A stretch of 64,000 nucleotides of DNA from Gammaproteobacteria bacterium (GTDB lineage: Bacteria > Pseudomonadota > Gammaproteobacteria > SURF-13): the NCBI GenBank assembly GCA_016195665.1, contig JACPZD010000037.1:1-64000 (forward strand), written 5' to 3'. Under the pieces are notes generated by a model. The model was not told where the DNA came from. It saw nothing but the letters and a program-made list of their open reading frames with translations, and did no database searches. The position numbers were made by a program, and so were the translations under genes. This document shows, piece by piece, positions 143 through 62,151 of this stretch; position 1 is the stretch's first letter, and every line of letters begins with the position of its first letter.

Positions 143-208
143 GTTCATTGTATGACTATCGTATTGATTGCTGCAGGATTGTACAGTTCAGATAGTCATA
201 CAATGAAC
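143..208. repeat. 18-bp perfect inverted repeat between IS end and RHS gene
   Basis: gttcattgtatgactatc at 143-160 is repeated exactly in reverse complement at 191-208, with a 30-base loop. The last codons of the RHS frame (reading VHCMTI, then stop) are encoded by the right arm, so the present RHS stop codon comes from foreign sequence. The arms resemble palindromic units associated with REP-type or MITE elements; that assignment is an inference. Confidence 0.7.
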
Positions 209-3200
209 TTGACCCCTCTGCTCAGTGCCCGTATAGCCGTATTGAGGTATTGCACCGGTTGAGGCGAGCTTGTTACCCCAGGCGTCAAAGCGGGCTGTGC
301 CGTCGCTGCCGCCGGTGGCGTTGGTCAGTGCGATGACGCTGCCCAGGCCGTCCTGATGGTAGTACTGATTGGCTGTAGCAGTGCTGCGGATGAGCGGGTT
401 ATCGGTGCCGGGGCCGTGGGTGTAGCGGGCCAGCGGACTGGTCCAGCCGCTGTATTCGGCCTGGATGTCAGAGCCGTTGTAGAGATAGTTTGTGCTAGTG
501 GCCCCGACGGTCTTTTGGATTCTTCTGCCTTGGTCGTCGCATTGGTAGCTCTGATTGGCCTGGCCGGTCTTACTCACTTGGCTCAGGCGATTGAGGGCGT
601 CGTAGCTGAGGCTGGTGAGGGTGGCCCCTTCGCTCTTGGTGAGTAGGTTGCCGTTTGGGTCGTAGCTCAAGCTGGCAAGGAGTGCGCCGGTGGGACTGCC
701 TTGGCGGATTTCTTTGAGCTGGTTGGCTGTGTCGTAGACATAGGCTGTCGTGTTGACGCCGTCGGTCTTTTGGCTGCGGTTGCCGAGGGTGTCGTAGCTG
801 TAGCCTTCGATGAGGGTGCTGGGGACGACGGCGTTGTTTCTGACTTCGCTGAGGCGATCAAGGGCGTTGTAGAGGTATTGGTATTTGGTGAGGGTGGCGC
901 CGATCTGTTCGGTGTGGGTGAGGCGGTTGCCGGCGGCGTCGTAGCTGTAGTCGTGTTGCGTTACGACGCTGGCGCTGGTGCTGCGATTTTGCACCTGGCT
1001 TAGGGTGTTGTCGGGGTTGTAGGTGTAGCGTGTGCTGACGCCGCTGGGGAGGGTCTTTTGGGTGAGTCTTCCGGCGGCGTCGTAGGTGAAGCCGATGAGT
1101 TGGGTCCCGGCGCCGATGCCGGTGAGGCGGCCGACGCTGTCATAGAGGTAGTCGGTGGCGACTCCTTCACCGTCGGTAAGCCGGGTGAGGAGGCTGCCGG
1201 GGCTGTAGCGGTATTGGAGGGTCTTGTTGCCGCGGGAGTCATTGAGGGTCTTGAGCCGGTGGGCGCTGTCGTAACTGTAGCGGTAGGTGACGTTGGGGCC
1301 TTGGACTTGGGTGGCGAGGCCCAGGGGGTTGCGGGTGTAGCTGACGGTACCGGCGGCGCTGCTCTGGGTGAGGAGTTGGTGGCCGTAGCCCCAGGTGTAG
1401 GTGGTCACTTGGCCTTTGGCGTCGGTGACGCGGGTGACGTTGCTGAAGATGTCATAGGCGTACTGGCGGCTGCGGCTTAAGGGGTCGGTGTCTTTGAGCA
1501 GGCGGCCGAAGTCGTCGTAGCTATAGGTCATTTGGGGGGTGAGGACGTCGCTCGCGGGGTTGGTGCCCGTGGCGTCGGTGCGGCCGGCCTCGACTTTGGT
1601 GCGCTGGCCAAGATTGTTGTAGCTGTAGCGGGTCACGGGACGTATTGTACCCAATAGGGCATCGGTGTATTGAGGCCCGACGATGCGGGTGGGTCGGTTG
1701 AGTTCGTCGTAGGTGGTGAGGGTGACGCGGCCCAGGGGGTCGGTGACGCTGACTACGTTGCCGTTGGTGTCGTAGTCGAACTGGGTGATGCGGCCGAGGG
1801 CGTTGATCTGTTGCTTTAATCGGCCGTCGCGCTCGGGGCCGTAGTAGGTGTAGTTGATGCTGTTGCCGTTGGGGTCGGTGATGCTGCGCGGCTTGCCGTC
1901 GAGGTCCAGGGTGCGGCTCACGGCGTTGCCCTGCTGGTCGTAGGCTTTGGTGATGTGGTTGTTGGGGTCGTATTCAAAGGCCAGGGTGTAGCTGTCGGGG
2001 TTGGTGATCTTGGTGATGTTGCCCGCGGTGTCGTACTGGTAGGCGGTGGTGAAGCCGCCGGCGTTGGCGCCGGTCAGTGTGCGATCGGACAGGTCGTAGC
2101 TGGCGCTGGCTTGATCCACCAGGGTGGGGACGCCCGCCACCGGGACGGTGAGCCCGGTGTTGCTGGGATTGCCGTTGGGGTCGTATTGGTAATCCCGCAA
2201 CTGGCCGGCGGTATCGGTGCCTTTGATCACGCGGTCCACATCGTCGTAGACGAATTGGGTGGGGTACCAGTCCTCATTGAGGCCGGTCTTGACGCGGCCG
2301 AGGGGGTCGTAGCTTAAACTGGCGCTGTCGAATTCGGTGGCATCTATGAGGCCGTCGCCGTTCTTGTCGCCACGGCGGGTGATGCCTACCGGATTGAGTC
2401 CCTGCACCAGATTGACGGTGTCGTTGTAGCTGTATTCCAGGGTCGGGCCGGCCTGGGCGGTGAAGTCACGCACTTGTTTGCCGGTCAGGACGTTGCCAAA
2501 GCTGTCGTAGCTGTTGAGGGTCCAGGCGAGGAGATCGGTCGCCACGGGGGTGTACGTGGTGGGATCCAGCGTCGCGCCGATGCCGGCTTTGAGCCTGACG
2601 GTCTGTAACGGGTTGCCCTTGGCGTCGTATTTCACCAGGGTGTAGTTGCCGCGCGCGTCTTTGATCTTGCCGGGCTGGTTGTAGGTGTTGAAGTAGCTGT
2701 ATTCGACCGTGGCCCCGGAAGGCTGGGTGATGCGGGTGACGTTGCCATTGGTGTCATAGGCGTACTGGGTGAGATAACCGGGCGGGCTGAGCTTGGAAAG
2801 GCGGTTCATGACGTTGACGCTGTCATAGGTGTAGGTGCGCTCGGCGCCGTTTTCCTCCACGATCTTGACGGGGTTGCCGTTGGCGTCAAAGTAAAACGTG
2901 CGGGTATAGCCCCGCTCGTTCACGCCGATCGCTTCACGGCGGAAGTCATTATAGGTGAAGCTGGTGGTCTCCCCCAGGGTGGTGTAGTGCTTGAAGACCC
3001 GGCCGTTTATATAATACTCGAAGGTCATGCCGTTGCCGCGCGGCAGGGTGTAGCTTTTCATCACATGATTGAGCAGGGTGTCGCTGTAGTAGCTGTAGCT
3101 GACCGGCGGCTGGGCGCCCGCAACGGCGAGCGGATTCTTGTAGGTCACCAGATTGCCCGCCGCGTCATAGACATACTGCTGGCGGCGATTGGTCCAGTCT

Positions 3201-6200
3201 TTGACTTCGATGAGGCGATTATTGACATCGTAGGTGAGTGTGAGACTACGACTGAGGGAGTCCGTGACCGTGGTTAAATTGTTTCCGGTATAGGTCAGTG
3301 TCAGGGCATTGCCGTTGCGGTCAACGATCTTTGAAAGCTTGGCCTTTTGTGCAACCGTGCCGGCGATATTTCCAAAGATGTAGGTGAGCCCGTTCTTCTC
3401 CCTGATACTGTATGTCCCATCGGCGTTACGAGCAGTGTTGAAGAAGTATCCCTTGGGCGGGACAAAAACACTGCCCACGGCGACGCCTGCGGTCGAGCCT
3501 GCTACCAGAATAAACTTCTTGCTGCCGGTACCATCGGTCCAGGTCACCGATGATGTGATGCCGTCGGTATCGGCCGAATCCGTAACGCCATTGGTGTTAT
3601 GGTCATTGAAGGTCAGGGAATGATTAAAACTGTGTGTCCAGCCAAAGCCGAGCGGCCCGTCCTTGGCATCGCGGCTATTGTAACTGCGTTCAAAAACCAC
3701 CGGCAGCCCTCCCCGGCCCTTGATAGCGAGATCGCGCTCGGTGTGATACATATTGCCGCTCACCATGTTGACCGGGTCGCCTGCAAAGGTCGAGTATGAG
3801 GTTGTGCCAAAATCAATACCTGAACTGAAATTATTGGTGACAGGGTCGGCAAAGCTATACAACGAGGGCATATTTGTGGGGTCGCTAGTGGTAAACCCGC
3901 CCGCATAACTTCCATTGATGATATAGGCGCCACTCATGGTTTTTGCGACCGTATCATTCTTCTCCGCCACCCAAACCGCGCCACGCCAGTTGTTATACTG
4001 GATTAAACTGCGCGGCGCAGTGACGGTATATCCGGCATTGATATAGCTCTGAACTGACGCCACGTAACTCGCAGGATAGTTCAAGGTGGTATTGGTGTTG
4101 CTGGTAAGCTTGGGGATCTCGGTGGCTTGATTGGCGCTGGTGATGGTCAATATTGCAATGCCCATCTCCTTGGCAAATTGCAGACCCCGCACGGTGCTCA
4201 CCGCATCCATCCGGGCGTTCTCCTGCCAAATGTAGGCCTCAAAGGCAGAGGAGGAATAACCGCTGAGCTGGAACGTCTTCCACACCAGTGCGCCTGTGCT
4301 TAAATCCACAGTGCGTGACTGACCCCCCGGGACATCAATGAGAAAGCCTTGCCGCGTTATCGCGAAAGGCAGATCAAAAAGATATTTCACCTTCATCTGC
4401 GTGGCGGTAAGTCCAAGATGATTACCGCTCTCGCCCGAGCCGCCATCCAGCTCACCAATGCGTTTAGCGCTATCCGTGATGTAACGCATGTATTTGAGTC
4501 CCACCAGATGCAGATACTCGCCTTCGGTTTCTTCCAGGTTGGTATTGGGGCTCGGCGTGTTACGCACACTGGCGAGGAGTTTGGCGGCACGTTCGCGCAA
4601 CAGTCTATCGGAGGCCTGGAAGGCATAGCCCTGCAAGGCGTGATAATTGGCGGCGTTGATATTATTGAACGTGATGGTCTTTATCAGGGGACTGCTCCGC
4701 TCATTCAGGCGCAAGTCCATGGTCAGACGGTTTTGTGTGGTGCAAAAGCCGACCGCCGTAGTGCCGACTGATTGATCTACACCTTCGGCCTTGATCACCG
4801 GCACCACATTGATGGTGCAGGGCAGGGCCGCCAATAGATCGGGATTGGCCTTCCACGTGTCGAGCGCGCTTTGATCGGTGGTGGTCAGCCCCTTAAACGA
4901 AAGAGTGGTACGTTTCAGCACCGTGGTGGGCAAATCCAAAGTCACCGCAGGCGCCAGAGCGGTTCCGGCTGAATTGGCGCTGGTGATTGTAAGCTTGTAG
5001 CGGTGGGCATCGGGCAGTGCGGCGACCTCGGCGGTCAGACCGGTTCCCCAACTGGTAAACTGCACCACGGTATAAGGCAGCGTGGCGGGCAACACATCCA
5101 CTTGTCTGGGGAGCAACGTCCCCAGATAGCCGACATCGGACAGCGTATTATTGCTGTAATTGGGGGGCAGTGCTTTAATGCTGGCGCTAACCTGCTCCTC
5201 GTATTTCTCGTGGGGCAGCGTATTGGTACGGCGCGCCATGTAGGTGGTGTAGTCAAACGCCACGTTCGTGGCGATACCCGCCTGATAGGTTTTATCCTTA
5301 AAGCTGGGATCCAGCGGGATCCAACGGTGGCCTGACTTGTCTATGGCGTTGCCGCGGTAATTGCCATAAGGCACACAGGCCTCCACCCAGACGTGCGCTA
5401 TTTGCATCCCCACCGTTGCGCCGGCGCCGCTGACCACTTTGCCATAAGTAGGATTCAACCCCTGACCCACCATGGCTATTGCCGCATCGTAGGTTTTCGC
5501 GCCGATCCAGCGCGGCCCGCGCAGATCCGTGATTTGGATCGTTCCTCTGACATAACGTGTAGGGATATTTGACGCCCTCAATAAGGCGATCAATAAAGAA
5601 GCTTGATCGGTGGGGCCACCCGCCTTGCTGTAAAGCGTGCCCATGGTTCCTTTGAGCGAACCCCAGTAGGGTTCAAATTTTATCTCATTGGAGACATATT
5701 GATAAATCTGCACCGGTGAATAATTCAATTTTTCCGCCAGCGCCCGAATTTCCGGGGTGAGTGACACGTCGCTGGTTTCGGCCAAATCCGCAGCGGTGTA
5801 GCTACAACTTGCCGCCTCGGTAGGTGTGGGGTCGGGCGCCACAGCCAGCAGGTTGTTACCCAGAAAGGCGTACATGTTGCCGGGCGTATAGGGTGAGGCG
5901 AAGTACTGCGGCGTAGTTGGGCTGGCGGGCAATTCACGTGACGCGGGCGGTTCTTGCTGAGTGAAGGTGGGAACCGGCTGCTGATTGGCGAGATCCGCCT
6001 GTTCCTTCACTTTCCCGTGCAACTCTTTCAGTTCTGCCTTCAGTTTGCCTAAGGCAAGGCCTCTCCCATTTTTTTGTTTGCTGTTGTGCACGCTGTCCAG
6101 GGCATTCGTAATTCGATCAAAGCGCTGCTCAACGGCTTGCAGGGTGGCGTCGAGTACAGCCGCTTTGCCATTTAGGCCTTGTTGTGCAAGTTTGCCCCGC

Positions 6201-6550
6201 GTTTCAGCAAAGTAAGCCTTGATCTCTTTGCGCAATTCAGCAAACTCGTGAAGCTTGCTGCGGATCACCATGCGCTTGGTATTGAGCGCCTCCTCTTCCT
6301 CAGACGGACTTTTGGTCTTTTTATCCTCCGCCTCGACTTGGTTGGCGAGTTCGGACACCTCATCCAGATGCTGACTCAGCTGATCGGTCAACGGATTGCC
6401 GCCAAGCTTGACGCGATCAGTCACTACTCGTTGGATGATGTCTTCGGGAAGTGGAGCGGAATCAGCCGGCGCGGCGAGTGTCGCGCCCGAACCGGCGGCA
6501 AACAGCACGATAACAAAACTCATCCGCAAAATCATGTTGGGTAGCTTCAT
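188..6550 (-). CDS. Giant secreted RHS/YD-repeat protein with transglutaminase-like domain, C-terminally truncated
   Basis: A 2120-residue protein. It begins with a Sec signal peptide (about residues 1-26), then a charged, helix-rich segment (about 30-195), then a transglutaminase-like domain (about 270-430). In that domain AHVWVE and WIPLDPS carry the expected His and Asp, but the position of the catalytic Cys appears to be Pro313 (GGPTDQAS). A DUF6531-type RHS entry region follows near residue 920 (DPVNMVSGNMYHTERDL), then dozens of YD repeats to about 2085. The core begins (YYHQDGLGSVIALTN) but stops at YGYTGTEQ, exactly where RHS proteins continue with GLYYxRARYYDP. The remaining residues come from an inverted repeat. 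The start is supported by ggaggtga at 6563-6570. The core completion and any C-terminal toxin or tip domain are lost. It lies 69 bp behind the toroid gene, probably in one transcription unit. Confidence 0.85.
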   Translation of the reverse strand: MKLPNMILRMSFVIVLFAAGSGATLAAPADSAPLPEDIIQRVVTDRVKLGGNPLTDQLSQHLDEVSELANQVEAEDKKTKSPSEEEEALNTKRMVIRSKLHEFAELRKEIKAYFAETRGKLAQQGLNGKAAVLDATLQAVEQRFDRITNALDSVHNSKQKNGRGLALGKLKAELKELHGKVKEQADLANQQPVPTFTQQEPPASRELPASPTTPQYFASPYTPGNMYAFLGNNLLAVAPDPTPTEAASCSYTAADLAETSDVSLTPEIRALAEKLNYSPVQIYQYVSNEIKFEPYWGSLKGTMGTLYSKAGGPTDQASLLIALLRASNIPTRYVRGTIQITDLRGPRWIGAKTYDAAIAMVGQGLNPTYGKVVSGAGATVGMQIAHVWVEACVPYGNYRGNAIDKSGHRWIPLDPSFKDKTYQAGIATNVAFDYTTYMARRTNTLPHEKYEEQVSASIKALPPNYSNNTLSDVGYLGTLLPRQVDVLPATLPYTVVQFTSWGTGLTAEVAALPDAHRYKLTITSANSAGTALAPAVTLDLPTTVLKRTTLSFKGLTTTDQSALDTWKANPDLLAALPCTINVVPVIKAEGVDQSVGTTAVGFCTTQNRLTMDLRLNERSSPLIKTITFNNINAANYHALQGYAFQASDRLLRERAAKLLASVRNTPSPNTNLEETEGEYLHLVGLKYMRYITDSAKRIGELDGGSGESGNHLGLTATQMKVKYLFDLPFAITRQGFLIDVPGGQSRTVDLSTGALVWKTFQLSGYSSSAFEAYIWQENARMDAVSTVRGLQFAKEMGIAILTITSANQATEIPKLTSNTNTTLNYPASYVASVQSYINAGYTVTAPRSLIQYNNWRGAVWVAEKNDTVAKTMSGAYIINGSYAGGFTTSDPTNMPSLYSFADPVTNNFSSGIDFGTTSYSTFAGDPVNMVSGNMYHTERDLAIKGRGGLPVVFERSYNSRDAKDGPLGFGWTHSFNHSLTFNDHNTNGVTDSADTDGITSSVTWTDGTGSKKFILVAGSTAGVAVGSVFVPPKGYFFNTARNADGTYSIREKNGLTYIFGNIAGTVAQKAKLSKIVDRNGNALTLTYTGNNLTTVTDSLSRSLTLTYDVNNRLIEVKDWTNRRQQYVYDAAGNLVTYKNPLAVAGAQPPVSYSYYSDTLLNHVMKSYTLPRGNGMTFEYYINGRVFKHYTTLGETTSFTYNDFRREAIGVNERGYTRTFYFDANGNPVKIVEENGAERTYTYDSVNVMNRLSKLSPPGYLTQYAYDTNGNVTRITQPSGATVEYSYFNTYNQPGKIKDARGNYTLVKYDAKGNPLQTVRLKAGIGATLDPTTYTPVATDLLAWTLNSYDSFGNVLTGKQVRDFTAQAGPTLEYSYNDTVNLVQGLNPVGITRRGDKNGDGLIDATEFDSASLSYDPLGRVKTGLNEDWYPTQFVYDDVDRVIKGTDTAGQLRDYQYDPNGNPSNTGLTVPVAGVPTLVDQASASYDLSDRTLTGANAGGFTTAYQYDTAGNITKITNPDSYTLAFEYDPNNHITKAYDQQGNAVSRTLDLDGKPRSITDPNGNSINYTYYGPERDGRLKQQINALGRITQFDYDTNGNVVSVTDPLGRVTLTTYDELNRPTRIVGPQYTDALLGTIRPVTRYSYNNLGQRTKVEAGRTDATGTNPASDVLTPQMTYSYDDFGRLLKDTDPLSRSRQYAYDIFSNVTRVTDAKGQVTTYTWGYGHQLLTQSSAAGTVSYTRNPLGLATQVQGPNVTYRYSYDSAHRLKTLNDSRGNKTLQYRYSPGSLLTRLTDGEGVATDYLYDSVGRLTGIGAGTQLIGFTYDAAGRLTQKTLPSGVSTRYTYNPDNTLSQVQNRSTSASVVTQHDYSYDAAGNRLTHTEQIGATLTKYQYLYNALDRLSEVRNNAVVPSTLIEGYSYDTLGNRSQKTDGVNTTAYVYDTANQLKEIRQGSPTGALLASLSYDPNGNLLTKSEGATLTSLSYDALNRLSQVSKTGQANQSYQCDDQGRRIQKTVGATSTNYLYNGSDIQAEYSGWTSPLARYTHGPGTDNPLIRSTATANQYYHQDGLGSVIALTNATGGSDGTARFDAWGNKLASTGAIPQYGYTGTEQRGQVHCMTI

Positions 6551-9890: not shown

Positions 9891-10934
9891 ATGGAATCAC
9901 TCAATCGGCGGCTTACCCTCGTCGTTCCAGACCTGGTCGCTCCCGGCGTCCTGCCTCCCGCGACATTAGCAGAACCCTTCGCTATCGCTCTTCCCTGTAC
10001 GTCACTGGACAAGGCCGTCCCGGATACACAATCACGCGCTTTAGAGCTGGAGTTATTGCTGGCGCGCGGAGAGCGAGAGAAGGCAGCGAATAATCCTGAG
10101 GAATTACTCTTTACGTTATTCACATCGGCAGCGGCTGTCCCTCTCCCTACGGCTGCGGTGACCTATCTGGCGGATACGGATCGGCGAACAGACGGCTGGC
10201 TGCTGCGCGCCGATCCGGTTTACTTACAGGCCGACAATGCCCGCGTCATCCTGCTGGGGAATGACTATCTGAACATACAGCAAGAGGAGGCCGCTACGCT
10301 GAGAGAAGTCTTACGTCCCCTCTTCGAAACCGTGGGTATGCAGCTTGAAGTATCTCATCCCAAACGCTGGTATTTACGCCTTAGAGAAAACCCCTGTATT
10401 GTTTTCCGCTCGCTGCGCGAAGTCCTCGGCCATGACATCCACGCCTATTTACCCGATGCAAAACCCTGGCGCAGCCTGTTAAATGAAGTACAGATGGCGC
10501 TGCACGAGAGCGATATCAATAAGGCACGCGAGGCGCGCGGCGAATGGCCGATCAACAGTCTCTGGTTCTGGGGAGGGGGAACATTCCCGGCCGCCGAACC
10601 GTCTCCCTTTACCAAGGTATGGAGCGATGAGCCGCTGGCTGTGGGCCTTGCGAAACTGGCAGGCGCACCCCACGCCGCGCTGCCCTCCAATGCGCAGGAG
10701 TGGTTGCATCTCGCCGACACCCCTGGCGAACATCTGGTAGTGATGCAGCGCTTGGGGCCGAATTTTTTCGAGCGCTTTAATACACAGTGGGCCGCACCGC
10801 TGTGTGCGGCGTTACGCGGACGCATGTTAAAAAGTTTGTCTTTATATGTTGGCCACGGGAACGTTTTTCACGTTAACCGCTCATTGCTTGGCCGCTGGTG
10901 GCGGCGGAGGCGGCCGCTCGCATTCTATCGGTAA
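9891..10934 (+). CDS. rpfE: RpfE-like regulatory protein
   Basis: A 347-residue protein matching the RpfE family encoded next to recJ in Xanthomonads and many Betaproteobacteria. The conserved SLWFWGGGTFP segment, the preceding DINKAREARGEWPINS and an N-terminal LTLVVPDL are seen. The family is related in fold to phosphoglycerate-mutase/phosphatase-like proteins and was named from the Xanthomonas rpf cluster, but its biochemical role is not settled. The part reading VAPGVLPPATLAEPFA is encoded by a dispersed palindromic element inserted in frame right after the first beta strand, and probably adds about 21 residues. The gene ends 8 bp before the likely recJ GTG, so the two are probably cotranscribed. 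Confidence 0.8.
   Translation: MESLNRRLTLVVPDLVAPGVLPPATLAEPFAIALPCTSLDKAVPDTQSRALELELLLARGEREKAANNPEELLFTLFTSAAAVPLPTAAVTYLADTDRRTDGWLLRADPVYLQADNARVILLGNDYLNIQQEEAATLREVLRPLFETVGMQLEVSHPKRWYLRLRENPCIVFRSLREVLGHDIHAYLPDAKPWRSLLNEVQMALHESDINKAREARGEWPINSLWFWGGGTFPAAEPSPFTKVWSDEPLAVGLAKLAGAPHAALPSNAQEWLHLADTPGEHLVVMQRLGPNFFERFNTQWAAPLCAALRGRMLKSLSLYVGHGNVFHVNRSLLGRWWRRRRPLAFYR
9935..9998. repeat. Palindromic dispersed element, copy A (inside rpfE)
   Basis: A 64-bp stretch beginning ggtcgctcccggcgtcctgc. By hand alignment it matches 61085-61148 at 57 of 64 positions, and its first 37 bp match 19030-19066 (35/37) and the reverse complement of 40575-40611 (36/37). It carries a gtcgc...gcgac stem and is read through in frame by rpfE. 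Confidence 0.85.
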
Positions 10935-16276: not shown

Positions 16277-16310
16277 ATACTAAATCATATTACATACCTT
16301 TTCAATATGA
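16277..16310 (-). promoter_or_regulatory. vapBC promoter with candidate operator
   Basis: On the minus strand, TTGAAA (16300-16305) and TAGTAT (16277-16282) are separated by exactly 17 bp, ending 8 bp before the vapB ATG. Overlapping them is the inverted repeat tcatatt (16285-16291) and aatatga (16304-16310), a plausible VapBC operator. The -35 box overlaps the last codons of the E2-E3 gene. Confidence 0.55.
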
Positions 16311-19300
16311 TTTTCCGGCGGAAACCTTCTGCGTGCGGCGCAGGCGTGATAACAGTCTTCTCACCATGTCTCCAAACAGCTCGGTTTGGGTGGGGTGCGG
16401 GTGTATCGCGTGCGCCACCTGTTCCAGCGTCATGTCGCCGGCGACCATCATCACCGCTTCGCCGATTAAAGTGTCGGCGTGGTCGGCGAGGAAGTGCACG
16501 CCGATGATGCGACGCGTTTTCTTGTCGGCGACCAGTTTAATCAGGCCCAGCGTCTCGTTGGTGATCATGGCCTTGGCATCGATGCTCATGGGCACTTTGA
16601 CTTCGACGGCGTCTATGTTCCTGGTCTTGGCCTGCTCTACCGACAGGCCTACGAATGCGGCCTGCGGGCGGGTGAAGATGACGCCGCAGTCCTTGTCCTG
16701 GTTGTACCGGGCGTCTGCGCCGATGATGTTCGCTGCGACGACGCGCCCCTGCGTGGCGGCGGTGTGCGCGAGCATGTAGCCGCCGATCACGTCGCCCGCC
16801 GCGAAGATGTGCGGCACACTGGTGCGGCAGCGCGCATCGGCTTTAATCACACCCTTCTCGACCGCGACAGCGGCCTTATCCAGTTTAAGCGGCTCCAGTA
16901 CCGGGCGCTTGCCGGTCGCCATGAGCACATAGTCGCAGCTCAGCGTGTGCGTTTTATTTTCCGCATCGGCGAAACTGAGCTTCATCGCGCCGGGCTTTCC
17001 TTTGATGTCCTGCACCTTGGCGGAGACGTGCACGGTAAGGTGCGGGTCTTTATTCAAAATGTCGGCGAGATTTTTGGCGATCTCCTGCTCGACTTCGGCG
17101 AGCAGGCGCGGCTGGCCTTCGAGCAGCGTGACCTCGCTGCCGAAGTCCTGGAAAATCTGCGCCATCTCGACGCCGATGGCGCCGCCGCCGACGATGGCGA
17201 GTTTTTTCGGCGCTTGTTTGAGCGTCCACACCGTGTCGGAGGTCAGCACACCGCCGTTTTTCAGGCCTTCCTGTGCACCGGGAATCGGCGGCACAAACGG
17301 CGGCGCACCGGCGGCAATCACCGCACAGCCGAAGGTGATGTGCTCGCCCTTGGAGCCGTCGCCTTGCGGCGCACGCGGGTGCGGATCGCTACCGTTGGCG
17401 GAGGTGTCCACAAATAAACGATGGTCGGTTTCGAAACTGGCGAAACCCTGGATGAGTTTGATCTTGACGCCGGTGTCGGTCTTTTTCGCCATCTCGCCGC
17501 GCGTCTCCAGCACCTTGCGCCGCGTCTTTTCCAGCAGTGCGAAATTCAGCTTGCCCCCGGTGGTGCCTTCGACACCGAGATGCGCGTCGTGCGTGCGGTC
17601 GCGCAGGCGGTCCGCCGCCGCGCGCCACGCCTTCGACGGAATGCAGCCGCGCCACAGGCATTCGCCGCCCGGCAGCGGCGCGTCGTTCACCATCGCTACC
17701 TTGATGCCGTGTTCGGCAAGTTCGCGTGCGCAGTCTTCGCCGCCCGGCCCACCGCCGATGACGACGACGTCGTAATCCCATTTGCCTTCGGGTATTGCAG
17801 GACCGAGCGTTCCCATCCAGCTCTCCGGTTGTTCGATATAACCTTTCAAGGTATTGAGAAACAGCGCCACCTCCGCACCGTTCACCACGCGATGATCGGC
17901 GGTCACGGTGAGCGGCATGCCCTGTTCCTGTGTCGTGGCGATGGCGAGGATGGCCGCCGTGCCGGGGGTGGGGATGGCGTCGAAATAACTCACGCCGAGC
18001 ATGCCCATGTTGGAAATCATGAAGGTCGGATTGGCGTACTCTTCCGGCTTCAGGCGGCGCACGCGTGCGCGCTCGACCAGGTCTTTCCAGGAGGTATTTA
18101 ATTCATCGAGACCACGCGACTCGCAGTGCCTGAGCACCGGCACCACGAGGCCGCCGCTGTCCGCCGAGACCGCGATGCCGATATCCACATCGTCGCGCTC
18201 GACCAGTTTGTCCACCGGCTGATAGGCCCAGTTGACGGTCGGATGTTTTTTGATCGCCTCGGCGCAGGCCTTGGCGATGAGCACGGTGAGCGACACGCCT
18301 TTGCGCTTCGCCGCCTTGATGAGATTTTCCGGCTTGGCATGCAGCGTGACATGGAACGTCGGCATGGTGAGCGCCGCCGTCATGGAGTGAGTCACCGCAC
18401 GTTCCATCGCGGTCATGGCGCGGCCATGCCCCGGTACCTGAACTTCCGGCATCACGTGCGCGGGGATTTGCGGCGCGACCTCGCTCGGACGCTCCAGCGG
18501 CTGCGCGCGGCGCACGTCCTGCGCGGTGATCACGCCGTCCGGGCCGCTGCCCTTGAGCGTGTTCAGATTTACGTGCAACTCCGCGGCGAGCTTGCGCGCC
18601 TGCGGGGTCGCCTGTTTGTTGTCGGGGCGCGCGACGGGTTCGCTCGGCTCGGCGCCCATGAGCGGCGCCTTGTGTCCCGGCGCGGGATGCGCGGCGGCGA
18701 GGCGATGCCGCTCCTCCTGTTCCGACGGGCTGGTGACATTGTCCACCGCGCCCTTGCCCATCACGGCGAGAGCGGTGTGCACCACGTCTTCTGATTTATC
18801 CACGAGATAGGCAAGCGCGCCGCCCACCGCCACCACGCTGTCCACCGGCGCGATGGGGCCGGACAGGAAGCCGGCGCGGAATACTTCCACGTCCATGATG
18901 GCCTTGTCGGTCTCGACCTGCGCGACGACATCGCCACGCTCGATTTTGTCACCTACCTTTTTAGTCCAGCCGACCACGACACCTTCAGTCATGGTGTCGG
19001 AGAGTTGCGGCATCTTGATAACATGGGTCGGTCGCTCCCGGCTTCCTGCCTCCCGCGACACTAGCACATCCATGTGCGTCGCCGCTTGCGGCGCTGGGGT
19101 TGCAGCAGGCTGAGCAACAGCCTGCGCTGGCGCCGCTGTTTCGGTGAGCTTGGACGTTTGCTTTACCTCTACTCGCGTTGCGGCGGCTGGAGCCGGAGCA
19201 GCCCCCTCCGCCTGCACCTCGGCGGCGCTCGCCACGAGATAGCCTATCGGCGCACCCACTGGCACAACGCTGTTCAGCGCCGCGCGCGGACCGGACAGAA

Positions 19301-19469
19301 AACCATCGCGGAACACTTCGACATCCATGATGGCCTTGTCGGTTTCCACCGTCGCCACCACGTCGCCGCGCGAAACTTGATCACCGATATTTTTTTCCCA
19401 GCTCACCACGACACCTTCGGTCATGGTGTCGGAGAGTTGCGGCATTTTTATGGGGTGGGGTTCGGACAT
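16302..19469 (-). CDS. Dihydrolipoamide acyltransferase-dihydrolipoamide dehydrogenase fusion (E2-E3)
   Basis: A 1055-residue fusion of two subunits of a 2-oxoacid dehydrogenase complex, most likely pyruvate. Order: lipoyl domain 1 (lipoyl Lys45 in ETDKAIMD), Ala/Pro linker, lipoyl domain 2 (Lys189), linker, peripheral-subunit-binding domain (about 287-322), acyltransferase catalytic domain (about 345-552, His526), then a whole flavoprotein E3 from about 565. E3 carries VVVIGGGPGG, the redox pair Cys604/Cys609 (GGECLWRGC), the NAD motif VGGGAIGVEMA and the HPHPT active-site His near the C-terminus. The E2 motif reads DHRVVNG where DHRVxDG is usual. The linker between the lipoyl domains contains VSREAGSRERP, encoded by the dispersed palindromic element. 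The partner E1 gene is immediately upstream, separated by a MITE-like element. Confidence 0.92.
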   Translation of the reverse strand: MSEPHPIKMPQLSDTMTEGVVVSWEKNIGDQVSRGDVVATVETDKAIMDVEVFRDGFLSGPRAALNSVVPVGAPIGYLVASAAEVQAEGAAPAPAAATRVEVKQTSKLTETAAPAQAVAQPAATPAPQAATHMDVLVSREAGSRERPTHVIKMPQLSDTMTEGVVVGWTKKVGDKIERGDVVAQVETDKAIMDVEVFRAGFLSGPIAPVDSVVAVGGALAYLVDKSEDVVHTALAVMGKGAVDNVTSPSEQEERHRLAAAHPAPGHKAPLMGAEPSEPVARPDNKQATPQARKLAAELHVNLNTLKGSGPDGVITAQDVRRAQPLERPSEVAPQIPAHVMPEVQVPGHGRAMTAMERAVTHSMTAALTMPTFHVTLHAKPENLIKAAKRKGVSLTVLIAKACAEAIKKHPTVNWAYQPVDKLVERDDVDIGIAVSADSGGLVVPVLRHCESRGLDELNTSWKDLVERARVRRLKPEEYANPTFMISNMGMLGVSYFDAIPTPGTAAILAIATTQEQGMPLTVTADHRVVNGAEVALFLNTLKGYIEQPESWMGTLGPAIPEGKWDYDVVVIGGGPGGEDCARELAEHGIKVAMVNDAPLPGGECLWRGCIPSKAWRAAADRLRDRTHDAHLGVEGTTGGKLNFALLEKTRRKVLETRGEMAKKTDTGVKIKLIQGFASFETDHRLFVDTSANGSDPHPRAPQGDGSKGEHITFGCAVIAAGAPPFVPPIPGAQEGLKNGGVLTSDTVWTLKQAPKKLAIVGGGAIGVEMAQIFQDFGSEVTLLEGQPRLLAEVEQEIAKNLADILNKDPHLTVHVSAKVQDIKGKPGAMKLSFADAENKTHTLSCDYVLMATGKRPVLEPLKLDKAAVAVEKGVIKADARCRTSVPHIFAAGDVIGGYMLAHTAATQGRVVAANIIGADARYNQDKDCGVIFTRPQAAFVGLSVEQAKTRNIDAVEVKVPMSIDAKAMITNETLGLIKLVADKKTRRIIGVHFLADHADTLIGEAVMMVAGDMTLEQVAHAIHPHPTQTELFGDMVRRLLSRLRRTQKVSAGKSY
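19030..19076. repeat. Palindromic dispersed element, copy C (inside E2-E3 gene)
   Basis: Begins ggtcgctcccggcttcctgc and matches copy A at 35 of 37 positions, then continues into the palindrome gcacat-cc-atgtgc. Read from the minus strand it encodes VLVSREAGSRERPT in the linker between the two lipoyl domains, without breaking the frame. Confidence 0.85.
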
Positions 19470-40315: not shown

Positions 40316-40467
40316 AGATCGCTTCCTCTCAAAATCTGTGTATGGTTCATGTTACGCCCCCTGTCAATGGGGTTGGCTGCGAACCGTTTTCCCCGGCAAA
40401 GCGGGTTAAGGGTGCCTCTAAAAATTCGATCAAGACGCGAGGGCAAGGCGGAAATGCGCGAAAAAGC

Positions 40468-40516
40468 GGTCGCTCCTGCGCATCCCTGCGCCCGCGACAT
40501 TGGTGCATCCCTGCAC
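40468..40516. repeat. Palindromic dispersed element, copy D1 (within MITE 2)
   Basis: This copy shows the most complete fold: gtcgc (40469-40473) pairs with gcgac (40494-40498), enclosing gcgca-tccc-tgcgc (40478-40491). A second hairpin gtgca-tccc-tgcac (40503-40516) follows. Both loops read TCCC. It is diverged from copies A-C, which keep the outer gtcgc/gcgac pair. Confidence 0.7.
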
Positions 40517-40574
40517 GGCACAGTGTACACGTCGTACATGAGCATTTTGAGCGCATTTCCAACGCACAGGGACG

Positions 40575-40611
40575 TGCTAGTGTCGCGGGAGGCAGGACGC
40601 CGGGAGCGACC
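40575..40611. repeat. Palindromic dispersed element, copy D2 (within MITE 2)
   Basis: The reverse complement matches the first 37 bp of copy A at 36 positions. It faces copy D1 within the same MITE-like element. Confidence 0.85.
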
Positions 40612-40652
40612 AACGCGGCCATCGTGGCTTTAGCGGATTTTTAGAGGTGCCC

Positions 40653-55363: not shown

Positions 55364-55693
55364 ACCTAAAAGCATCTATCTAACCGCCCAGAGCCGACAG
55401 AAAAATACCCAGATAAATATAATTTACCGCAGAGGACGCAGAGGAACACAAGAAAAATACTATTTACGATCAAGGATGCAAAGGAATAACATTAAAAAGG
55501 TTTTGTTTCTCCGCGTCCTCTGCGGTGAACAGAAAAATACCCAGATAAATATAATTTACCGCAGAGGACGCAGAGGACGCAGAGGAACACAAGAAAAATA
55601 CTATTTACGATCAAGGATGCAAAGGAATAACATTAAAAAGGTTTTGTTTCTCCGCGTCCTCTGCGGTGAATCGTTGTTTTGAATAAGAATTAC
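55364..55693. repeat. Intergenic region with a tandem 132/141-bp duplication
   Basis: Unit 1 (55398-55529) and unit 2 (55530-55670) are near-identical; unit 2 differs by one extra 9-bp gcagaggac. Each unit holds accgcagaggacgcagagg and ends in ctccgcgtcctctgcggtgaa, so each folds into a long hairpin, and its inner repeat is itself tandem. These accgcagaggacgcagag/ctctgcggt sequences are common dispersed spacer repeats. No gene is supported here. Confidence 0.85.
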
Positions 55694-60596: not shown

Positions 60597-60740
60597 CTTA
60601 GAGCCTATCCATACTGTAGTTCCACTGAGTCCGTTGCGGTGAAAAGGCTTCACCGCAGAGCGCGCGGAGGACAAACAAACCCTTGCTTGAGGGCATTCCT
60701 CTGTGTCCTCTGCGGTAAATTATTTATGGATAGTTCTTAG
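60597..60740. repeat. Nested inverted repeats between hflX and hflK
   Basis: Outer arms ttagagcctatccata and tatggatagttctta and inner arms accgcagagcgcgcggagg and cctctgtgtcctctgcggt form nested hairpins downstream of the hflX stop. The inner pair belongs to the accgcagag spacer-repeat type seen again at 55398-55670. It separates hflX from hflK and may end or weaken transcription between them. Confidence 0.7.
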
Positions 60741-60744
60741 TAGA

Positions 60745-62151
60745 TCAAATGAGCGCTACCGGGGAGAAATCGTCGAGTCCCGCTTCACTACGCAGGCTTT
60801 CCAGACTCGCGGAGGGGATCTCGACGTCCATGACCCAATCTCCGTCCTGCTCCAGATGCTCAGCGCGCACTGCGCCCATCTTGAACAATCGGGCTCTCAG
60901 CCGTCCCGCGCTGGGAGGCAGACGCAGACGCTGCCGCAGCGGGCCTTGAGGCGGCGTCTCGCTATCCTGGCGCTTCGCGGCAGCCTCCGCCAGGGCCTGC
61001 TGCAAGAGTTCCAGACCTGCGCCCGTGACCGCGGAGAGCCACACCCGCTTGATGCGGCCCTGCTCATCGCGCTCCAGCCGTGGCAGCCGCTCCCGGCATC
61101 CTGCCTCCCGCGACACTGGCAGAACCCTTCGCTGGCGCTCTTCCCTGTGCGGCGCGGTGTCGGGCAACAGATCAATCTTGTTATAAATCTCCAACTGCGG
61201 CACGTCTTCCGCGCCGATTTCTTTGAGTACGCTGTTCACCTGCTCGGCGCAGATCTGGTGGTCGTCGGCGTGGGCGTCTATCACGTGCAGCAGCAGATCG
61301 GCGTCGCGCGTCTCTTGCAAGGTGGAGTGAAACGCGGCGACCAGATCATGCGGCAGGTTGCGGATGAAGCCGACGGTGTCGGTGACGATAAGCGGTTGGC
61401 CGTTGTCCAGCCCCAGACGGCGCACGGTGGGATCGAGCGTAGCGAACAACAGGTTGGCCGCATAGACGCCGGCGCCGGTGAGGCGATTAAACAATGTGGA
61501 CTTGCCGGTGTTGGTGTACCCGACCAGCGATGCGGTAAACAGGCCGGCCTTGCGCCGCGCGCGCCTGCCTGTTTCGCGCTGGCTGCGCACCTTCACGAGG
61601 CGCTTGTTGAGCTGTTTGATGCGCGCGCCGATCAGACGGCGGTCGGTTTCGAGCTGGGTCTCACCGGGCCCGCGCAGACCTATACCGCCCTTTTGCCGCT
61701 CCAAGTGGGTCCAGCCCCGTACCAGGCGGGTGGCGAGATGCCGCAACTGCGCCAGCTCGACCTGCAGTTTACCCTCGTAGCTACTGGCGCGCTGCGCGAA
61801 GATGTCCAGAATCAGGCCGGTGCGATCCACGACCCGGCATTGCAACAACTTCTCGAGATTACGTTCCTGGGCGGGCGACAAGGTGTGATTGAACAGCACG
61901 ACCTCGGCCTGTTCGCGTTCTACGCAAGCACGGATTTCTTCGGCCTTGCCGCTGCCTGCAAAATATTTGGGATCGGGGCTGCTGCGTGTACCGGTGATGG
62001 TGGCGACCGGGCGGCCGGCGGCGGCCAGAGCGAGTTCGCGCAATTCCGCCAGTTCTTCACTACCGTTGCAAACGGGATGCCGGGAGCGACTGCCGTTCAG
62101 GTTCAGGTGAACCAGGACTACACGTTCCCCGCGCTTGGGGCGCTCAAACAA
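60745..62151 (-). CDS. hflX: GTPase HflX, carrying two short in-frame insertions
   Basis: A 468-residue ribosome-associated GTPase that splits stalled ribosomes. The N-terminal HflX domain (TGTRSSPDPKYFAGSGKAEEI, KGGIGLRGPGETQLETDRR) and the GTPase domain are intact, with G1 GYTNTGKST, VTDTVGFIRNLP, and NKIDLLPD. Two stretches do not fit the family and come from the dispersed palindromic element: SRSRHPV near residue 22-32 (DNA around 62075-62090), and HREERQRRVLPVSREAGCRERL just after NKIDLLPDTAP in the GTPase domain (61085-61148). Both keep the frame. The second adds about 21-22 residues next to the G4 region. Confidence 0.92.
   Translation of the reverse strand: MFERPKRGERVVLVHLNLNGSRSRHPVCNGSEELAELRELALAAAGRPVATITGTRSSPDPKYFAGSGKAEEIRACVEREQAEVVLFNHTLSPAQERNLEKLLQCRVVDRTGLILDIFAQRASSYEGKLQVELAQLRHLATRLVRGWTHLERQKGGIGLRGPGETQLETDRRLIGARIKQLNKRLVKVRSQRETGRRARRKAGLFTASLVGYTNTGKSTLFNRLTGAGVYAANLLFATLDPTVRRLGLDNGQPLIVTDTVGFIRNLPHDLVAAFHSTLQETRDADLLLHVIDAHADDHQICAEQVNSVLKEIGAEDVPQLEIYNKIDLLPDTAPHREERQRRVLPVSREAGCRERLPRLERDEQGRIKRVWLSAVTGAGLELLQQALAEAAAKRQDSETPPQGPLRQRLRLPPSAGRLRARLFKMGAVRAEHLEQDGDWVMDVEIPSASLESLRSEAGLDDFSPVALI
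61085..61148. repeat. Palindromic dispersed element, copy B (inside hflX)
   Basis: Matches copy A (9935-9998) at 57 of 64 positions over the full length, ending in the shared cttccctgt. It is in frame in the hflX GTPase domain, after NKIDLLPDTAP. Confidence 0.85.
62075..62090. repeat. Palindromic dispersed element, fragment E (inside hflX)
   Basis: The complement of ggatgccgggagcgac repeats the first 16 bp of the element (gtcgctcccggcatcc). It codes for SRSRHP near the HflX N-terminus. A short fragment, so homology is likely but not certain. Confidence 0.55.

Follow-up and report, generated by a model that had tools for sequence, protein, structure and literature searches.

The window (the whole 64-kb stretch of DNA analysed here) contains, between an O-methyltransferase gene and recJ, an rpfE-like open reading frame (ORF) of 347 residues at positions 9891-10934 of the plus strand. 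This ORF has no match in Pfam or NCBIfam, and homologues were found in 13 of 24 relatives searched. Within it, at 9936-10004 on the plus strand and in the sense orientation, lies a copy of a short palindromic element in its 69-bp form, which is matched by our covariance model and encodes VAPGVLPPATLAEPFAIALPCTS; homologues in five genomes of the family lack an insert of about 22-24 residues. An earlier note on this DNA had described the copy as a 64-bp unit at 9935-9998, and its length and ends are corrected here.

The element is also found antisense to two genes on the minus strand. The fused dihydrolipoamide acetyltransferase and dihydrolipoyl dehydrogenase gene (E2-E3, 1055 residues, 16302-19469) has a 51-bp copy at 19031-19081 (plus strand), which encodes THMDVLVSREAGSRERP within the linker that separates two lipoyl repeats. 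The gene of the GTPase HflX (468 residues, 60745-62151; NCBIfam score above the curated cut-off) has a 69-bp copy at 61086-61154 (plus strand), which encodes PHREERQRRVLPVSREAGCRERL and follows the NKID motif. When the window HflX is aligned with the solved E. coli HflX, there is a gap at the insert and the alignment resumes at the next residue. A second fragment in hflX, near 62079, which had been thought likely, was rejected; the covariance model misses it and it is at the level of chance, about four matches to a 13-mer with up to two mismatches being expected per window.

The remaining two copies are non-coding and lie in a MITE-like unit at 40410-40652 with imperfect terminal inverted repeats (GGGTGCCTCTAAAAATTCG / GGGCACCTCTAAAAATCCG). 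One is a 51-bp copy on the minus strand (40560-40610) and the other a 52-bp variant on the plus strand (40469-40520), whose length is not a multiple of three; both are matched by the covariance model. The unit (also loci L019 and L020) is itself non-coding and has the ends GGG(T/C)(G/A)CCTCTAAAAAT, and units resembling it, with the element, were seen on contigs C6 and C7. All five copies that the earlier note listed, in rpfE, the E2-E3 gene and hflX and twice in the MITE, were thus recovered by the covariance model, the total for the genome being about 121.

Other repeats were observed in the window. Direct repeats of 102 bp, 100% identical and spaced at 141 bp, occupy 55397-55671 and contain the motif CCGCAGAGGACGCAGAGGA, which is seen again, inverted, near 60696. 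An ORF of 2120 residues at 188-6550 (minus strand) has many short imperfect DNA repeats and is RHS/YD-repeat-like by eye.

The repeat unit and its fold

The 13-mer GGTCGCTCCCGGC has 74 exact matches in the 2.38-Mb genome, against one for the reversed control, and a 30-mer core has 104 matches with up to three mismatches, against none. A covariance model built on 35 diverse copies gave 127 matches in the genome, 121 of which are clean full copies (about 51 per Mb). Of the genome sequence itself, the parts surrounding the copies were read. Their lengths are 51 bp (n=99), 69 bp (n=13), 52 bp (n=8) and 50 bp (n=1). The consensus of 200 copies from this and other genomes has 51 conserved positions, GTCGC-TCCC-GGC-nTCCT-GCC-TCCC-GCGAC-AYTRG…TCCCT…C-GTC[A/G], with sharp edges; apart from a short target preference, the information is at background outside positions 0-50. 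In the same consensus, positions 47-50 are usually CGTC, a terminal GTAG is absent and the ends are not inverted repeats. A search of the 64-kb window against Rfam at the gathering threshold gave no match. Plasmid, phage and IMG/VR collections gave none either, and hence there is no evidence from them of a phage or plasmid carrier.

The element strand is predicted, both as RNA and as DNA, to form two hairpins, without a tail, in which the TCC loops are conserved and the stems have 5+3 and 4 bp. In RNA folding of three element sequences, two were much better than shuffles and the third was not. In hairpin 1, GGC/GCC is nested within GTCGC/GCGAC, with TCCC unpaired on either side; in hairpin 2 the stem letters vary and the TCC loop is constant. 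Among 158 distinct copies, mutual information peaks at the paired columns 35-46, 31-51 and 36-45 (1-based), and 96.5% of the paired cells are complementary, compared with 87.8% after shuffling and no more than 58% after sliding the partner. Because the search pattern included stem 1, the constancy of this stem is in part a product of the search, and we claim covariation chiefly for stem 2 and the pair 31-51, which lay outside the pattern. Stem 1 forms of the type GCCGC…GCGGC are present in other genomes. On the reverse strand, the hairpins present unpaired GGA motifs that resemble CsrA/RsmA sites (GUACAGGGAUGUAC in a TA-rich form); these are putative.

Insertion sites and the means of movement

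At the DNA level, comparison with empty sites in prlC and trpE gives a gain of exactly 51 bp with no target duplication, and copies nested within other copies, read by eye, are likewise clean insertions. When the proteins are aligned with those of as many as five members of the family, the latter lack 17 or 23 residues where the element lies in valS (two sites), trpE, lysA, gpmI, uvrA and prlC (two sites); eno has a similar gap, at a site that varies in length. At the sites aligned, the earlier claim that the inserted residues are foreign to their protein families holds: the relatives are shorter there by exactly 17 or 23 residues. The check proposed with that claim, a search for the same residues in relatives without the element, was run; the residues are absent from them, and the idea of mobility survived it.

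The bases at the insertion point are non-random, with G at -1 in about 79% of copies, C at -2 and -5, and G at +4, and the preferred target is approximately CGnCG^CAGG. G at -1 accounts for 68-83% in every well-sampled frame class, non-genic copies included; since the preference is equal across frame classes and outside genes, codons do not account for it. The left part of the target (~CGnCG) resembles the 3' end of the element, CGTC[G/A]. We also observed head-to-tail arrays of two to three copies with an exact period of 51 bp (L067, L092, L096 and L162, loci that include Rhodanobacter and Lysobacteraceae MAGs).

The element thus enters DNA as an exact unit of 51 or 69 bp, without target duplication, at about this target and in genic and non-genic sequence alike. 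The covariation of two hairpins whose TCC loops stay constant, insertion without a target duplication and a 3' end that resembles the left target point to single-strand movement of the HUH/Y1 kind. The element would then be transferred as a single DNA strand, with an HUH/Y1-type transposase acting in trans, and such a transposase is our best guess for the mobilising enzyme. The genome has nine Y1_Tnp genes, and no match to the element core was found within the flanks read at these nine loci. No RAYT-like gene came up in a motif search over 0.84 Mb of loci that bear the element in other genomes. No half-element was seen beside a transposase, and the core copies that were checked are full-length matches to the model too. 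One carrier genome (G005) has 16 copies and no detected Y1_Tnp. The orientation of the element shows no regional strand bias (concordance 0.52-0.53, on short contigs with the origin unlocated), and hence there is no sign of the lagging-strand preference that IS200/IS605-type movement would lead one to expect.

Hairpins, the absence of target duplication and a short target are features of IS200/IS605-derived MITEs and of the double-hairpin elements of fungal mitochondria. The former have subterminal hairpins, no duplication and a fixed short 5' target; our element likewise has hairpins and no duplication, but its target is a preference with no fixed word. Moreover, the ends of such MITEs are those of an autonomous TnpA element, whereas here the Y1_Tnp loci are without the element and no parent element was found. 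The host of the fungal elements is unrelated to those of ours. A classical MITE has terminal inverted repeats and a target-site duplication, and the element has neither.

The element might instead be a REP-type sequence that happens to lie within genes often and that belongs to one of the superfamilies described by Di Nocera et al., GTAG/RAYT or CGTC. Like the GTAG- and CGTC-tagged REPs, it is a short palindromic repeat with CGTC at one end, no target duplication and some intragenic copies, including one in uvrA. Also in keeping with such an origin, Y1_Tnp was detected in 11 of 12 element carriers and in 24 of 44 other genomes (56 genomes, p 0.02), a comparison that is uncorrected for genome size and confounded by it. 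However, the terminal GTAG is missing and the tag is differently placed, and two hairpins in 51 bp stand against the single REP hairpin of 20-40 bp. Neither the 8-9-bp stem starting in A-T pairs nor the CCA tail is present, the element does not flank RAYT genes, and its large intragenic share contrasts with published REPs, which are mainly between genes (PMC3733652). On balance we regard a REP-type identity as unlikely.

Copies inside genes

So that the element could not bias its own test, it was deleted and genes were called on the rejoined flanks. The strict element-blind set obtained in this way has 52 intragenic copies, all of which are open, with no stop and no frameshift; looser gene-call settings gave 61-73 open copies, 0-3 with a stop and 1-3 whose length is not divisible by three. 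The probability of finding none of 52 closed is 7e-10 if frames are used uniformly (a third closed expected) and 2e-6 if frame use follows the target preference (22% closed expected). None of the nine 50- and 52-bp copies is in the strict set (Fisher p ~0.01). Together with the exact empty sites, these counts support the earlier proposal of a mobile palindromic element lying in frame inside coding genes. Depending on the threshold, 48-69 of the 121 copies are outside the gene sets, and an ORF heuristic gave an open frame for 89 of 103 core copies; the share inside genes can thus be stated only roughly, as about 43-86%.

The element is stop-free in four of its six readings, and about a third of readings contain a stop. 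The earlier statement that it leaves the frame open is accordingly correct for the copies in genes, through their 51- or 69-bp length and the absence of stop-containing readings from genes, and incorrect as a general property of the sequence. The three stop-free readings listed at that time are all real, but the commonest one inside genes, DVQGRTNVAGGRMPGAT, with the element antisense, had been missed. This reading, frame (-,2), makes up 61% of in-gene copies across genomes against 38% expected from the target preference (an expectation that comes from 38 non-genic copies), and the excess suggests selection on the peptide.

Many hosts belong to named NCBIfam families, often with scores above the curated cut-off and a match that spans the insert: ManC-type GMP_PMI, ValS (which carries two copies), RecG, DapB, PcnB, Lnt, TrpE, LysA, GpmI, SucC, UvrA, Dgt, PriA, enolase, PrlC, MnmE and HflX. 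DnaG and RluB also exceed the cut-off, but the matched stretch excludes the insert, and the matches of AddA, AddB, FtsQ and PBP1b are below it. In the enolase alignment the conserved blocks are retained. The AlphaFold2 model of this enolase has a mean pLDDT of 86, with values below 50 for the insert region, between the N-terminal part and the barrel; this is consistent with a floppy surface loop in the model, low pLDDT alone being no proof of disorder. Single ORFs may hold several copies. At L202 (G000:C36:103271-110238), one ORF of at least 1744 residues, CheA-like by eye and adjoined by a CheB-like gene, has five copies in both orientations, all open, and an ORF at L023 (G000:C11:973-3985) has four, including a tandem pair at 51 bp.

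A different account of these copies is that the element was selected as a regulatory or RNA-binding module, with the unpaired GGA of the reverse strand acting in the manner of a CsrA/RsmA site, in which case its spread would be functional and not selfish. The constant TCC loops (GGA on the opposite strand) within covarying stems and the predominance of the antisense orientation in genes would suit such a role. Nevertheless, about 29% of open in-gene copies are in the sense orientation, the hosts have no function in common, and conserved loops are also expected if a transposase reads them, which makes this account quite improbable in our judgement. We give slightly less credence still to the view that the insert is excised from the RNA as a mini-intron, or bypassed by the ribosome like mitochondrial bypassing elements, with proteins of normal length as the result: strong, potentially recognisable hairpins and insertions in conserved essential proteins might favour it, but length modulo three and stops would then be irrelevant, whereas the copies in genes have lengths of 51 or 69 bp and lack stop-containing readings, and the peptide reading matters, as frame (-,2) indicates.

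The reading we favour is an insertion that is kept in the protein. The sequence is very probably a non-autonomous mobile palindromic element of 51 bp, with a 69-bp subtype, whose length is a multiple of the codon, which is free of stops in four of six frames and which is tolerated in genes. In-gene copies survive solely where the reading frame and freedom from stops are kept. Judging from sequence, the host genes would be translated through the insert, adding a flexible segment of 17 or 23 residues at tolerant points of the protein. Such tolerated inserts would let the element spread through coding DNA, the bulk of a bacterial genome, at little cost.

Distribution, age and significance

The core was found in 30 of 369 sampled Gammaproteobacteria genomes (27 of 272 genera), with a patchy distribution and 1 to 9 copies per carrier genome outside the family of the window. 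Within that family, all six sampled genomes carry the element, with 6 to 104 copies at up to three mismatches. Exact cores are present in named species as distant from one another as Nitrosomonas eutropha, Methylomonas koyamae, Halomonas, Pseudomonas, Gilvimarinus, Sedimenticola and Thiohalophilus, although some MAG records may be mislabelled. The patchy spread suggests horizontal transfer or frequent loss.

Six of the nine aligned sites (the second site of valS, lysA, gpmI, uvrA, eno and the first site of prlC) are empty in every aligned family relative. The insertions at the first site of valS, in trpE and at the second site of prlC are common to different genera, so not all copies are recent; the valS and trpE copies have unusual substitutions in common between genera, and a single base separates the prlC copies. 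These copies are missing from other members of the genera concerned, which indicates that gain, loss and possibly precise excision have occurred. One orthologous valS insertion in two genera (L055 and L254) has the rare substitution GTCGTG in both but differs in length (69 and 51 bp), and hence one form was converted to the other in place. The shared sites are what one would cite for ancient, vertically inherited insertions without recent mobility, a view that is scarcely tenable given the six sites empty in all aligned relatives, the copies nested in copies and the range of 6 to 104 copies within one family.

Rickettsia palindromic elements are mobile and lie in frame within many unrelated protein genes (PMC10969869, PMC3733652). 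Our element matches them in behaviour, that is, in-frame insertion into unrelated ORFs and absence from homologues. They are about 150 bp long and belong to Rickettsia (Alphaproteobacteria), whereas the element has 51 or 69 bp, two TCC-loop hairpins and hosts in the Gammaproteobacteria (in the broad GTDB sense). The likeness drawn in the earlier note accordingly stands for in-frame behaviour and fails for size and taxon, and we consider it functional, not one of membership. The note's further suggestion that such insertion was not known in free-living Gammaproteobacteria was too strong. Intragenic REPs are known from several free-living bacteria, including a copy in uvrA (Di Nocera et al. 2013, PMC3733652), and ERIC and other enterobacterial RU elements are found intragenically (Delihas 2007, PMC2759123). 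The latter have in common with our element their small size, mobility, gammaproteobacterial hosts and open frames that are fused into genes, but they are MITE-like units of 103-168 bp with handfuls of intragenic cases, compared with at least 52 in one genome here. In the open-access literature we found no description of this 51-bp family; exact words of its sequence occurred, among the 20 of 29 papers listed, solely in unrelated work on human and animal cells.

In summary, the 51-bp element family is real, mobile over evolutionary time and largely compatible with coding DNA, and it is unusual in its density, its exact codon-multiple size, its target preference and its taxonomic reach. A more far-reaching reading is offered tentatively, as possible and somewhat short of probable: a single-strand cassette of 17 codons, moved by a transposase and precisely excising, may have evolved its length and frames for life inside genes, crossed families and repeatedly supplied core proteins of free-living Gammaproteobacteria with disordered loops.

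A 2024 review regarded Rickettsia as an unusual case and similar behaviour in other prokaryotes as merely conceivable (PMC10969869). Rickettsia palindromic elements have so far been treated as a peculiarity, and here is a second, much denser case, in free-living bacteria. For annotation, recurrent 17-residue 'insertions' in unrelated proteins are seen to be one mobile element, and its exact 51-bp unit and target preference are a handle for tracing the mobilising enzyme. With its clean empty sites in essential enzymes, this case makes it testable whether mobile elements seed new protein segments and how they pass purifying selection.
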